Shown here in pieces: positions 3,655 to 63,330 of a stretch of DNA of 64,000 bases. Every line of letters begins with the position of its first letter. Positions within the stretch are counted from its first letter, which is position 1. The notes below the pieces were generated by a model. It saw only the letters and a program-made list of their open reading frames with translations, searched no databases and was not told the DNA's origin. The translations under genes were made by a program, and so were the position numbers. The stretch is from a virus. The stretch is taken from positions 24,152 to 88,151 of the IMG/VR virus record IMGVR_UViG_3300035698_012970. One strand, 5' to 3'.

Positions 3655-4136
3655 TTATTATAATTTACGATTGTTACTCTACAATCTTTTAGCTCGTATT
3701 TTATAATGTTTTCGATTTTTGTCCAGTTTCCACCGGCCAAACCTGCACCAATTCTAGGTAATCCAATGTGTTTACCCTTAAATTCTACATTCATTTTTCT
3801 CATACAAAGAATAAGAGCTTCATAATCGATCGGTGAGATGTTATTATTTCGCTTATAATCATATTGAGTATAAGCATTAACTACATAAAAAATTCCACCC
3901 TCATGAGTATAGCCACTTCCATAGTCGATACACCCAAGTTTAAAAATTGATGGCCCACTTTTTTCCATTGGGTATTCGTCACAACCAAAAGCTTTAGCCA
4001 TTTGTGGTGCAAGGCCTTTACCCATTCTGGATAAACAATTGCATCCATGTACAATCACATCGAACTCACCATTTAAGGCGAGTTCGATTAGGTTTCCTGT
4101 TATAGTTGAAAAATTCAGCATTTTTTTAATTATCAT
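3651..4136 (-). CDS. Macro domain protein (ADP-ribose binding/processing)
   Basis: A 161-residue single macro domain. The N-terminal part 'VIVHGCNCLSRMGKGLAPQM' and the late 'GLPRIGAGLAGGNW' are the ADP-ribose phosphate-binding loops of the Poa1/TARG1-like macro domains. Such enzymes remove ADP-ribose from macromolecules or hydrolyse ADP-ribose-1''-phosphate. In this window it may counter host ADP-ribosylation or balance the phage's own ADP-ribosyltransferase-like proteins; that is inference. It overlaps both neighbours by 4 nt, inside a tight operon. Confidence 0.9.
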   Translation of the reverse strand: MIIKKMLNFSTITGNLIELALNGEFDVIVHGCNCLSRMGKGLAPQMAKAFGCDEYPMEKSGPSIFKLGCIDYGSGYTHEGGIFYVVNAYTQYDYKRNNNISPIDYEALILCMRKMNVEFKGKHIGLPRIGAGLAGGNWTKIENIIKYELKDCRVTIVNYNK

Positions 4137-4417
4137 AGTTCCACGTATCTATTCTCTAAAAATTTCTTACTATAAACTCCAAGAACATGCTGATTCTCGT
4201 TATCAAGAATTACATACTCACCTGTGTTAACATATAATTCACGGCTTCCACTACCCATATTATTGGTAATACACATGCAACTTTCGTCATATTGGGTTAA
4301 AGCAACTGAAAGATCTCCATTATAACCTTCTATGGCTTTTTTGATCTCGTCTAACATAGATATAGATCCATCCCATACCCATACTAAAGTTTCTTCTTTT
4401 CTTCTGTATTTTTTCAT
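4133..4417 (-). CDS. Hypothetical protein (94 aa)
   Basis: Small soluble protein with basic start MKKYRRKEETLVWVWDG. It overlaps the macro-domain gene by 4 nt and abuts the large membrane protein upstream. No recognisable domain; possibly an accessory of the upstream membrane module. Confidence 0.65.
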   Translation of the reverse strand: MKKYRRKEETLVWVWDGSISMLDEIKKAIEGYNGDLSVALTQYDESCMCITNNMGSGSRELYVNTGEYVILDNENQHVLGVYSKKFLENRYVEL

Positions 4418-5787
4418 TAGTGGTCGTGTATTTCATTAGTTGAAACCCACATATTAAGACCAAATGAGATAAACAAAGCCAATATGTAAACTAAGACAAT
4501 GTGCCATGTCTTAGGACTTGTTTTTACATAAGAGAATTCTTCGATGAATTGTCTACGTTCAAATCGATGTAGGTTCTTTCCAAGATAATCAGCGTATGCT
4601 TGCCAAGTCTTATCAGTCAATATAGGAGTTTTAGATTTGGTTACCTTCTTAATTTCTTGACCGCCAAGTGGAATAGGTATAATACCTTTAAGATCTACCT
4701 TAACTCCTGTTTGTGCTGTTATATCAGCTAATACTTCATCAGGCATAACAATTGGTGTAATTTTCCTTCCATCAGTTGTTTCTAATGTATACTGATACAT
4801 TTCTAATACCTTAGATGCGGCTTCAGCAGTTAATGCTCCAGACATTGCCCATGAGAATGAATGTGCCCATTGGATTTCGTTACCTTTCTTACCGATACAA
4901 ACAACCAATTCATTTTGGTTACCTTTGACCCAATAGTTTTCTTGGTATTTAGCTATTAAAGGATCTTTATCCTCGAATACTAATATCCACAATCTTAAAT
5001 GTTTACTTACACCAAATTTAGCATTTAGATTTCTAAATATTTCTTGAGTCTCGTGTGATACTTTCGCACCAAGTATTGTAGGACAGTTATACTTATCAAT
5101 CCTGTACTCATATTCAAATAGACCCATACTGTCCGCTTCTTCTTCAGTTACGACTGGTATATTAAAAACCGATAAGTCAGAAGCTTTTACACGATTTTCA
5201 TATCGATGTTCAGTAAAAACTCCTTTTCTACTTTTTTCTACTTTTGGCCAGGTTGTCTTAAATACTCTGGATGTTGGACCTACCCGGGAATTTTGAAACT
5301 TAGTACCAGATGAATACACTGCACCATCTCTTGTTGAGTGATTTTTTCTAGTCTTAGTAACTTTTTTACCAGTTCCATAAATACCTACTAATGAATCATG
5401 TAGATGTTCATTCATACCATATCTATTACCTAAGTCTGTAATACAATACCAACTAGGTCCGTGGTCATCTTGGTAGGAGCAGTCATAGTAACGAGTACAG
5501 TATGTAGTATTACCATCACCATCAGTTCCACACGCATAACTTTCGCTACACGTTTCACTAATCCACTCATTCCAAGGTTCTTCTTCATGAACAGAAACTA
5601 TAGATTCACCCCAATATTCTGTGAATTTTACAGATGCATTGTCCATGATTGCCTTTGCTCCGATGATCAGTAACAAAGTAACAACTAGTGGGACTCCAAA
5701 TTCCCACCACTTATACTCCTTTGGATTTCTTAGATAGAAAACCAAGGTTACTATCAAAACTACTATTAATGCTCCAAATATGATCAT
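4417..5787 (-). CDS. Large membrane protein, possible TPM-like exposed domain, partner of LemA-like protein
   Basis: 456 residues. Two membrane segments at the N-terminus (about 1-20 and 29-50), a Cys-rich exposed stretch (about 80-115) and a C-terminal membrane segment (about 428-450). The middle part (about 255-350, with LWILVFEDKDP and VVCIGKKGNEIQWAHSF) resembles TPM/YgcG-type repair-associated domains, which commonly neighbour LemA in bacteria. It lies 2 nt after the LemA-like gene in the operon from the promoter at 7598-7630. The TPM resemblance is my pattern judgement; membrane topology is clear. Confidence 0.6.
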   Translation of the reverse strand: MIIFGALIVVLIVTLVFYLRNPKEYKWWEFGVPLVVTLLLIIGAKAIMDNASVKFTEYWGESIVSVHEEEPWNEWISETCSESYACGTDGDGNTTYCTRYYDCSYQDDHGPSWYCITDLGNRYGMNEHLHDSLVGIYGTGKKVTKTRKNHSTRDGAVYSSGTKFQNSRVGPTSRVFKTTWPKVEKSRKGVFTEHRYENRVKASDLSVFNIPVVTEEEADSMGLFEYEYRIDKYNCPTILGAKVSHETQEIFRNLNAKFGVSKHLRLWILVFEDKDPLIAKYQENYWVKGNQNELVVCIGKKGNEIQWAHSFSWAMSGALTAEAASKVLEMYQYTLETTDGRKITPIVMPDEVLADITAQTGVKVDLKGIIPIPLGGQEIKKVTKSKTPILTDKTWQAYADYLGKNLHRFERRQFIEEFSYVKTSPKTWHIVLVYILALFISFGLNMWVSTNEIHDH

Positions 5788-52818: not shown

Positions 52819-54945
52819 TTAAAATTTAATCTTTACTACTCTCTTAAAATTACCTGTAAGCTTAACTATTACCTCGTCACGTACAGTCGAATTGAAACCC
52901 AATCCTGTTAATTGCTTATCTACAGGTTCCAGCATAGAACTATTTCCTAGTACTTCCATTACCTTTTTATGTTTCAATAAATCTTGTATTAGATTCTCAT
53001 TATGGAAACCCCTTATTTTGTTTGGAGTTTTACAATTATCAAGCATAAACATATAATGCTTATTACCAACCTGATTCTCACCCCAATGATTTGGTGAAAG
53101 ACACATAAGATTTACTTTGTGGAATTGGTTAGTTTCAAGTCCATATATCTCTTTAGATGATGCAGTTTCCGGTAATTTATGATTGATTGAAAACTCACCA
53201 TTCTTTAGTGTTACTTCTGCTATTGGAACATTTCCTTTTACCGCATTGTTATATTCATATGAATATAATTCACCACCAAATTCAATTTCAGCTCTAAATC
53301 CTTTAGAACCACGGGAAGCAAATTGGTTTATCCAAAACTTATATACACCATCTGGCATTCTAGATAAAGTACCCCATGTGATGTTTTCCACAATATCTCT
53401 ATTATTGAATCTATTTGGAGTTGTGATATCAACATCTAAATTACCTAATGTGTTAGGATCACGTTTATTTGAATATCCTATAGATTTACAGTTTGGTTGC
53501 ATACACCAAGCATCCAAATCTGAATTATCGCTAGGATCATTCTCTCCCCACATTATACTAAACCTAAGTACTCCATCGACTTTTCCACCCTTGGTTTTAA
53601 CTGCTTCCTTAATCTGGCTTTTACCAGCTAGGTTACCATTAAACGTCCACGAGTAATTGTTATTCCATTTAAAAATAGGTTTACTTTCCCCATTTTTAGT
53701 GGTTGTCATTGTAACCAGGTTATTTTCGTGAGAGTTCTTTAACAATACCTCTATTGAACTACATCCTGGTAAAATATCTTTCATGAACTTATCAATTTGA
53801 ACTTCCTCAACATTATCAAATTCATTTCTTTTATGGCGTGATTTAGAGGATTTAACATTGTCAAATATAGATACTTTTTTAACCTCACCATCCCCGACAT
53901 TACTATGTAAAATTTCAGATACCTTAATGTCATCAATCGTAGCAAACCTTCTATCAAATGATTCAAGGAAATTGTTATCCTCGACGAATTTTTGTGCCTC
54001 TTCTATTTGTCTCTTAGTAATAGGAGCAACTGCTTTATGATAATTTGCAGGATCTACTCGTTTGTTCCAACTAAGACAAGCTTTATTAAGTTCTTCTCCT
54101 TCTGCTAACTCTGTGCATAGTACACCAATAAGATTGTTCTTAAACTTAGCAATAGTTTCTGGCATTTCATAGGTAGATACCCAAAGCCAATTATCTCTTT
54201 TGGCATTAGTTAGTAAAGTATATTCTTTCTTTGATTTGATTGCAGCATCAACGGAATGTAAATGTGATGTTCCATTAAGTAAGCTATCTTGATTAATAAG
54301 ATCTTTTACTAATTCCAAAGTATCTAATGGTATTTCGACCATAGCTCTTTGGAATACGTTTTTCTTATCCCTATAATCAGCCATAATAGCTTCAACTGAT
54401 CTTCCAGAATTACTTACAAATTTCTTTGGTAAATCTAAATGGAAATGGTCAAAAGTTCTTATCTCGTTTGGTTTTACTACTCCATATAATTCTGCTTCGT
54501 CTTTAGTATACCTTTTAACGTTTCTTGCTGTTCCAAGTCTAAACACTTTGTTATTCTTAGTACAAGATTCATAAGGTAAACTGTTTAACTCATTATATGT
54601 TTCAAAAAATACTTCTTTTATCTTAGAAGTTTTGATTCCGATAGAAAGAGCTTTTGCTGAATCCATATACTCTATATCAGTTTCAACATCAAATAATGAA
54701 ATAGTATTGTAATCGGAATCGATTGCTACTATATTACCATATCTCCTGATGAAATTTTTACAGTGATTACAATTATGAGTACTGCTTTCTGGGTCTCTAA
54801 AAATTGGGTTATTTTCTTTACTGAATGAAGAAATGTATAAATCCCACACTTCCCTACCTGTCAGTTCTACTCTGAATAGTTTACCTGTTTTTAACATTTT
54901 AGTAAACTGTTTTTGTATTACATCATTAAATTTTGATATTCCCAT
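52819..54945 (-). CDS. Large protein with C-terminal DUF2135/YfaP-like domain (708 aa)
   Basis: Second-largest gene here, first from the promoter at 54978-55010. Residues about 1-440 are uncharacterised, with a CNHC pair near 59 and a helical linker about 320-400. Residues about 455-600 read 'LRFSIMWGENDPSDNSDLDA', 'IGYSNKRDPNTLGNLDVDIT', 'IVENITWGTLSRMPDGVYKF', 'AEIEFGGELYSYEY', a pattern of the DUF2135/YfaP-like beta domain often paired with vWA proteins. Two vWA proteins at 17.7 and 19.8 kb may be partners (inference). Function unknown. Confidence 0.7.
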   Translation of the reverse strand: MGISKFNDVIQKQFTKMLKTGKLFRVELTGREVWDLYISSFSKENNPIFRDPESSTHNCNHCKNFIRRYGNIVAIDSDYNTISLFDVETDIEYMDSAKALSIGIKTSKIKEVFFETYNELNSLPYESCTKNNKVFRLGTARNVKRYTKDEAELYGVVKPNEIRTFDHFHLDLPKKFVSNSGRSVEAIMADYRDKKNVFQRAMVEIPLDTLELVKDLINQDSLLNGTSHLHSVDAAIKSKKEYTLLTNAKRDNWLWVSTYEMPETIAKFKNNLIGVLCTELAEGEELNKACLSWNKRVDPANYHKAVAPITKRQIEEAQKFVEDNNFLESFDRRFATIDDIKVSEILHSNVGDGEVKKVSIFDNVKSSKSRHKRNEFDNVEEVQIDKFMKDILPGCSSIEVLLKNSHENNLVTMTTTKNGESKPIFKWNNNYSWTFNGNLAGKSQIKEAVKTKGGKVDGVLRFSIMWGENDPSDNSDLDAWCMQPNCKSIGYSNKRDPNTLGNLDVDITTPNRFNNRDIVENITWGTLSRMPDGVYKFWINQFASRGSKGFRAEIEFGGELYSYEYNNAVKGNVPIAEVTLKNGEFSINHKLPETASSKEIYGLETNQFHKVNLMCLSPNHWGENQVGNKHYMFMLDNCKTPNKIRGFHNENLIQDLLKHKKVMEVLGNSSMLEPVDKQLTGLGFNSTVRDEVIVKLTGNFKRVVKIKF

Positions 54946-60212: not shown

Positions 60213-60935
60213 CTATATATTTGAAATTATCTTATTTTTAAATTCTTTCAGTGTATAAATTACGCTGAAATTAAGGTTTAATTCCTTATATAAATCTAAT
60301 TTATTGAGCCAATATTCATAATCCTTGCCCAACCACTTCTTCCTTTTCTCCCTGTTAATACCATCCAATTCGATCCACTCATCGCTTTCTAACAAATATA
60401 CATCAGATACCTTAGCAGATTCTGGGATTGGTTTATGTGCTTCGAATAGAATCTGATTATCTTCCAATAGTTCATAACATTCTTTTTCCAGAATGGATTC
60501 ATACCTAGTTCCACCCTTTGTTATCCCTTTAGTTCCAAATCCTCCCTTTCTTCCAATCTCTCTTAACCTTTTTCTTTCTTCTATATTCTCACACTGCTTT
60601 TTCTTAGCGATTGATATTTTTTCTCTAGTCTCTGGTAGTATCTCTCTATTCTTCATAAACTTGGAGATATCTTTTCTACGTTCATCAGTAAAGGAGTTTA
60701 ACACGCTATTCTTTATTTTCTCCCTGACCTCTTGTCTATGTGATCCATTATTTATAGACATCCTCTCTTTCTGACTTTCGGTAAGTGGTCTACCCTTTAA
60801 ACTTTTGCTAACTTTTTGGTTAATCTCCTTTCTTTTAGATTTAGTGCTAAACCCTCTAGCACACTTTGGTGAACAGAATCTACCAGATCCATATTCTCCA
60901 CTATGTTCGCTTTCACAATTTTCACAAATTCTCAT
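60213..60935 (-). CDS. PD-(D/E)XK-like homing endonuclease with YGSGRFCS zinc finger
   Basis: 240 residues. Third member with the shared N-terminal finger ('CESEHSGEYGSGRFCSPKCA'). Then NUMOD-like basic repeats (about 45-130), and a third kind of nuclease: 'TRYESILEKECYELLED', 'KVSDVYLLESDEWIELDG' (D...ExD). GATATATA promoter at 60949. Confidence 0.85.
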   Translation of the reverse strand: MRICENCESEHSGEYGSGRFCSPKCARGFSTKSKRKEINQKVSKSLKGRPLTESQKERMSINNGSHRQEVREKIKNSVLNSFTDERRKDISKFMKNREILPETREKISIAKKKQCENIEERKRLREIGRKGGFGTKGITKGGTRYESILEKECYELLEDNQILFEAHKPIPESAKVSDVYLLESDEWIELDGINREKRKKWLGKDYEYWLNKLDLYKELNLNFSVIYTLKEFKNKIISNI

Positions 60936-62162: not shown

Positions 62163-62498
62163 TTATTTCTTATTCATCTTCTTTATGATAGCAGCTTGTA
62201 ACGCTTCAGGCAATTTCTTTTGCTTAGCACTTAAACCATTAGGTTTATCGTCCTTCTTATCAGCACATTTGCATTTATCAGCACATTTACATTTACCTTT
62301 ACCAGTACACTTACATTTCTTAGCACATTCACATTTGCTAGCAGCTTTAGCATCAGCTTTACTGTCCTTCTTAGCAGGTTTCTCGCCTTGCTTCTTTAGA
62401 ATAGCATCTTGTAAAGCTTCTGGTAATTTTTTCTGCTTAGCACTTAATTCTTCATTAAGGAATTCATCATATGTGTATACTTTTCTTACTTTTGTCAT
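62163..62498 (-). CDS. Metallothionein-like Cys/Lys-rich protein with capsid-targeting-like N-terminus
   Basis: 111 residues. Starts MTKVRKVYTYDEFLNE, the clearest form of the leader. A 19-residue block 'LSAKQKKLPEALQDAILKK' appears at about 18-36 and again, nearly identical, at about 90-108. Between them lie eight Cys arranged as four CxC pairs in a Lys-rich setting (KCECAKKCKC, GKCKCADKCKC). CxC pairs bind soft metals in metallothioneins. Late-type promoter 24 nt upstream. No known family; metal storage or a head-packaged basic protein are guesses. Confidence 0.7.
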   Translation of the reverse strand: MTKVRKVYTYDEFLNEELSAKQKKLPEALQDAILKKQGEKPAKKDSKADAKAASKCECAKKCKCTGKGKCKCADKCKCADKKDDKPNGLSAKQKKLPEALQAAIIKKMNKK

Positions 62499-62522: not shown

Positions 62523-62530
62523 TATATATC
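62523..62530 (-). promoter_or_regulatory. GATATATA-class (late-type) promoter
   Basis: TTTAGATATATATAGTAAAT; overlaps the stop codon of the recombinase gene. Confidence 0.65.
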
Positions 62531-63330
62531 TAAATTGGGGTTTCAATTTTATTTAGAAGATCACAACTTACATGTGTGTATATTTCAGTAGTTTTACTTG
62601 ATTTGTGACCAGCAATACTTTGTATAATCCTTAAATTAACACCAGACTCAACCATTGAGGTAAAACAACTATGTCTTAATAAATGCATATGATATTGTTC
62701 TCCTAAATGTTTTTTAACTATTCTATTACATGACGAAGCTGTATATTGTTTTTTCGTTTGTCCATTAAATAGAAAATTCACTGGACGATATTCACTAAAA
62801 TATTCACGTAATAATTTTAATACATAATTTGATAGTGGAACAATTCTATCTTTCCGTCCTTTCCCATTTTTGATATAAATAACCATTCGATTCGAATCAA
62901 TATCAATGATTTTTAAGTTTATTAGTTCAGAAACCCTTATCCCAGTAGAATAACATAATGTAATTATTGACTTGTGTTTTAGATTTTTAATTTTAGCTAT
63001 GGTTGTTAAAATATGCTTCCTAGAAATAACCCGTGGAAGTTTACTTTCTCCCTTTGGTCGATCGAATTTTAACTTATTGTATTTTTTATTTAGAACCTTA
63101 TTATAAAAAAATTTAATTGCACTTATGATTTGGTTCTGTTGTGAAATTGATGTGAAATTATATTCATCAAGATATTTCTGAAAATCCAAAGAAATGATAT
63201 GTTGCGGATATTTATTAGTATTAATCAGAAATTTTTTAATGTAATGCAAATATATTTCTATAGACCGATTTGAATAATTATAATATTTAAGTTTTTGTTT
63301 AGAGATCTCTAAAATTCTATCGTGCTTCAT
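62530..63330 (-). CDS. Tyrosine recombinase (XerC/D-like integrase)
   Basis: 266 residues with N-terminal SAM-like core-binding domain (about 10-85) and a complete catalytic set: R132 in GIRVSELINL, Lys in GKGRKDR (about 157-160), H216-R219 in HLLRH, H242 in GHKS and Y251 in EIYTHV. It cuts and rejoins DNA at specific sites; roles include integration or resolution of genome multimers. No attachment site could be recognised near it. Confidence 0.92.
   Translation of the reverse strand: MKHDRILEISKQKLKYYNYSNRSIEIYLHYIKKFLINTNKYPQHIISLDFQKYLDEYNFTSISQQNQIISAIKFFYNKVLNKKYNKLKFDRPKGESKLPRVISRKHILTTIAKIKNLKHKSIITLCYSTGIRVSELINLKIIDIDSNRMVIYIKNGKGRKDRIVPLSNYVLKLLREYFSEYRPVNFLFNGQTKKQYTASSCNRIVKKHLGEQYHMHLLRHSCFTSMVESGVNLRIIQSIAGHKSSKTTEIYTHVSCDLLNKIETPI

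Follow-up and report, generated by a model that had tools for sequence, protein, structure and literature searches.

The internal proteins of bacteriophage T4 have a conserved targeting sequence in common but otherwise vary widely, their leader is cut off by the head protease, and of their positively charged residues only lysines have been seen contacting DNA phosphates (PMC3012670, PMC5694885). Specifically, IPI, IPII and IPIII are small, basic proteins with variable bodies behind a short N-terminal leader, K-x-Y-x-E-F-[IL]-x-E; the genes for IPII and IPIII, both of which start MKTYQEFIAEA (sequences from NC_000866), lie beside gene e and denV. A second relevant group, the bacterial (SmtA/BmtA, PF02069) and eukaryotic metallothioneins, is marked by closely spaced CxC pairs among many lysines. 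The spacing CxC-x5-CxC-x3-CxC, which recurs in the protein described below, is found in the animal beta domain and in the Neurospora copper thionein. An initial annotation of this DNA held that a metallothionein-like protein with a targeting leader and a late-type promoter was not known from phages, and among the open-licence literature we found no paper on a phage metallothionein.

The locus described here recalls both groups. It lies in a stretch of 64,000 nucleotides (the window) within an 88,151-bp IMG/VR virus record, itself a fragment, and encodes a 111-aa protein whose parts are listed in Table 1. Like the T4 internal proteins it is small and basic behind a short leader, its VYTYDEFLNEE resembling MKTYQEFIAEA; past the leader no similarity was seen, and we know of no Cys array in any T4 internal protein. 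Like the metallothioneins it has dense CxC pairs among lysines, but it contains no His, and its leader and blocks are without counterpart in them. We favour, at a probability of roughly 0.4, an accessory Lys-rich protein, possibly packaged in the phage head, whose Cys array would bind metal; packaging and metal binding are the parts of this reading that we infer.

Table 1. Coordinates (positions in the window) of the 111-aa protein, its parts and its upstream neighbour.
Feature	Position	Strand	Remarks
ORF	62163-62498	minus	111 aa, ATG start; leader first, then the Cys array flanked by blocks 1 and 2
N-terminal leader MTKVRKVYTYDEFLNEE	62448..62498	minus	residues 1-17; T4 IPII/IPIII-like; possible LxE cleavage site (between LNE and E)
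Block 1 LSAKQKKLPEALQDAILKK	62391..62447	minus	residues 18-36
Cys array KCECAKKCKCTGKGKCKCADKCKC	62265..62336	minus	residues 55-78; four CxC, eight Cys
Block 2 LSAKQKKLPEALQAAIIKK	62178..62234	minus	residues 89-107; near C-terminus, like most relatives
Tyrosine recombinase (PF00589, PF13495)	62530..63330	minus	266 aa; upstream neighbour, not part of the protein

The minus-strand ORF is a real, unusual accessory phage protein. It is overlapped by an antisense ORF of 108 aa, as might be expected if there were no real gene here, the region being either a low-complexity stretch or coding on the antisense strand. This is highly improbable: many contigs keep the block in the same minus-strand reading frame despite the overlapping ORF, and the codon differences between the two blocks are mostly synonymous (six, with two non-synonymous), so that the minus strand rather than the antisense ORF looks coding and the block looks selected. 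The protein contains 31 Lys and carries a net charge of +17, with a Lys/Ala-rich linker between block 1 and the array, a short linker before block 2 and a Lys-rich end after it. Cysteine makes up 7.2% of the residues against a mean of 1.3% over the minus-strand ORFs, and when the record's eight ORFs richest in Cys are compared, its four C.C motifs are the highest count. A structure model computed from the single sequence reached a pLDDT of 57, which is low confidence and too weak a basis for comparing folds, and at that confidence predicts helices at residues 27-37 and 98-108. Our best reading is of a mostly disordered Lys-rich protein assembled from exchangeable modules.

The two 19-residue blocks do flank the array as first annotated, but they are nearly rather than fully identical: 17 of the 19 residues agree, as do 49 of the 57 nt; the repeat was also recovered blind, as a 57-nt family. 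The block had moreover been treated as private to this protein, whereas pattern and profile searches find it widespread on phage contigs, as a common motif lying mostly near the C-terminus of small Lys-rich proteins. One search took KQKKLPExL as a pattern at the DNA level; the other, based on a profile, gave at least 600 pattern matches, a figure that is not the true member count, and 30 confirmed loci. The consensus is GL[TS]xxQKKLPxALQxAILKK. Both copies fit the block alignment, in which QKKLPE and an Ile are invariant, partly through the construction of the search pattern; the profile from this alignment (A2) matches 9 of 12 records tested, most of which had given rows to it. Judged by sequence, then, the 111-aa protein belongs to a phage block family with a QKKLP core followed by a putative Lys-ended helix. 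The small phage proteins with a C-terminal block share with it the block itself, the Lys-rich context and the C-terminal position, but they carry one block, lack a CxC array and in many cases lack a leader.

Several small contigs have the block gene among other small basic genes, and in two (L055 and L073, the latter with a PHROG match) it is close to a terminase-like gene. One block protein (L207) matches a virion structural PHROG at residues 220-347; its block is near residue 119, outside the match, which therefore says little on the block. To judge by eye from its other ORFs, contig L063 may come from a large virus of eukaryotes, and near the block gene of viral contig L181 a UV-endonuclease, UvdE (PF03851), is encoded at 4125-5144. 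The search of phage databases with the protein, suggested in the initial annotation, gave one weak block match (LR756502) among annotated phages, and the L205, L207 and L136 proteins as queries found no homologues there. The near-identical blocks, under apparent selection, and the two predicted helices would also suit a two-headed linker, in which a Cys-rich hinge, locked by metal or disulfide during head assembly, connects two binding helices that are nearly identical. We regard such a linker as improbable, as the relatives read have a single block and its partner is putative.

Eight Cys in four CxC pairs were confirmed on reading the ORF: all eight, at residues 56, 58, 62, 64, 70, 72, 76 and 78, are paired, giving CxC-x3-CxC-x5-CxC-x3-CxC within 23 residues, a metallothionein feature. 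To that extent the label 'metallothionein-like' stands. Neither Pfam nor PHROGs gave a metallothionein match, the full protein and the Cys segment both lacking any Pfam match, and there was no metallothionein among PDB matches up to an E-value of 10; the filters of such profile and PDB searches may lose short biased sequences. No other block protein in the fetched loci has two or more CxC, so the array is a single case, without a conserved homologue and with no conservation to compare. Membership of the 111-aa protein in a metallothionein family is not supported by its sequence and was rejected on the absent profile and PDB matches; metal binding by the array is what we infer from the sequence. 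The array coincides with an 18-nt tandem repeat, which, with the net charge and the wide occurrence of the block on small Lys-rich phage proteins, would fit a basic protein that binds DNA or a partner through its two blocks, the array between them being a flexible, lysine-rich spacer that arose by repeat expansion and has no part in metal binding. This seems unlikely to us, given that all eight Cys are paired as CxC at a regular 3-5-3 spacing and that the other fetched block proteins are without such an array.

CxC arrays are not unique to this protein among viral contigs, where three pattern scans found many, a considerable share being short simple repeats. In three contigs (L045, L136, L170) an MK(K)CKC...KKCKC protein is encoded between the portal gene and that of the head protease, with genes ordered alike in all three, a head link for CxC arrays that favours our preferred reading; both neighbours were identified by PHROGs in L045 only, and the gene order and starts of the other two were read by eye. 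Two CxC pairs, a Lys-rich stretch and a phage head-gene context liken it to the 111-aa protein, from which it differs in an N-terminal array of two rather than four CxC and in a remainder that looks unrelated. Another three contigs (L141, 595-732; L172, 3817-3954; L176) encode a 45-aa metallothionein-like protein, MTKCECEDCKCKCTGDCEDCKCKRTY..., with no Pfam match. Long (CK)n arrays occur in larger ORFs that by eye look like tail fibres (L021, L034, L038, L040, L046), some of them followed by WSD-x-KLK/RLKEN-like chaperone motifs, and CxC-rich segments lie within larger viral ORFs in L155 (10945-14031), L167, L122 (2544-3989), L102 (2591-4219) and L042 (2991-3740).

An SmtA query had one good match in annotated phages, in Microcystis phage MaAM05 (MW495066; our L178), where positions 2498-2719 encode a PF02069 metallothionein (E 5.6e-12). 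Because fliM, fabI and engB adjoin it, the record may be bacterial DNA submitted under a phage name, and we do not take it as proof of a phage metallothionein. Capture of the array from a bacterial genome was likewise set aside: a tblastn-confirmed search of genome contigs was empty, and the exact pattern led to planctomycete arrays only.

The gene lies directly downstream of a tyrosine recombinase. Homologues of this recombinase in two relatives (G013 and G021) precede different genes, which speaks against a conserved neighbourhood; the homologue in G013 (L247, 3208-3870) contains an in-frame stop. The late-type promoter of the initial annotation was not borne out, as TATAAATA precedes 2 of 157 ORFs, where 1.5 would be expected, and is absent upstream of this one. 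Neither it nor TAnnTTTG is enriched upstream of ORFs, and the region has no more sigma-70-like sites than shuffled sequence. Elsewhere in the window are 18 tRNA genes in several minus-strand clusters (35093-61635; one anticodon unresolved) and a weak similarity to HNH or homing endonucleases (60213-60935; phrog_15471, E 0.012). A 708-aa protein of unknown function (window 52819-54945, phrog_1735) has matches in 496 phage records from many hosts; among annotated phages it is matched best, at 61% identity, by the 462-kb uncultured phage LR756500, and next by the Cellulophaga phages phi17:2 and phi4:1. In the most informative comparison with relatives, we took as near relatives viral contigs at 50-66% identity to this protein, several of whose records are fragments. 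Their whole records contain no convincing block, and leaders are almost absent from the stretches read, so the gene looks accessory and the packaging signal is not lineage-wide.

The 'targeting leader' first annotated here exists as a sequence like that of T4 IPII and IPIII, but neither this phage nor those closest to it show an enrichment of its motif. The motif, written after sight of this protein and some relatives, is strongly enriched in two genomes related by protein architecture: it occurs in 5 of 82 ORFs of one (G001; 0.30 in shuffled sequence) and in 9 of 94 of the other (G002; 0.33), counts that none of 300 shuffles reached in either case. Both genomes encode block proteins, and in G002 the leader stands on the same protein. 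In the phage's own 88-kb record, counted with the window joined to the record's other stretches, it occurs in 1 of 157 ORFs against 0.25 expected, which 70 of 300 shuffles reach and which is therefore chance level. The profile of a T4-type head protease (phrog_207) found members in G001, LR756502, LR756500 and the near relative G013, and none in the phage's own record, a fragment. Capsid targeting by the leader is plausible from its sequence, and the 111-aa protein is possibly a T4-type internal, head-packaged protein.

The chance-level motif count in its own genome and the near absence of the leader from the nearest relatives would also agree with a metal or redox buffer that acts unpackaged in the infected cell, its leader resembling those of T4 by chance. 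Planctomycete genomes encode similar CxC-x3-CxC arrays in secreted-looking proteins with signal-peptide-like starts (L249, L251; exact-pattern scan), which would fit as well. We think an unpackaged buffer somewhat unlikely, since the pairing of leader and block is repeated elsewhere. A leader, a variable middle and the block are combined in two adjacent genes of L003 and in L180 and L205, the last two reading FESFINEE ... DLDKDGDKEE ... GLSAKQKTLPKALQAAILKK; L002 and L004 have a looser form of this architecture, with less exact starts (MKHLTKFEKF and MKLRYLKTFENF). In L002 (DLDKNKKISKYE), L180 and L205 an EF-hand-like loop takes up the middle; L004 has the Cys motif CPCGTDGCPAC there, and L003 a charged filler. 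Such middles may tend to bind cations, to go by a handful of sequences read by eye.

If the protein is, as we prefer, a packaged accessory protein with a metal-binding array, the leader would pull it into the prohead core, where a T4-type head protease may remove the leader. The two basic blocks, each with a short helix predicted at low confidence, would bind either DNA or a partner common to phages. When reduced, the array would take up some two ions of Zn(II) or several of Cu(I), and would serve as a metal or redox store travelling with the DNA. With leader, blocks and array in these roles, the protein would work most like a T4 internal protein bearing a metallothionein-like segment. A bolder version, which we consider distinctly unlikely, is that a metallothionein is packed into the phage head and that its thiolates, delivered along with the DNA, act as a metal or redox buffer, the protein being one member of a head-protein family with the same leader and block and a swapped cation-binding middle (EF-hand-like loop, CPCG...CPAC or CxC array).

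The block is a frequent motif, apparently without a name so far, and the architecture of leader, middle and block represents a modular phage protein set, whether or not the array handles metal. If the bolder version is true, there would be metal- or redox-buffering proteins inside phage heads, and phage entry would be linked to host metal stress.
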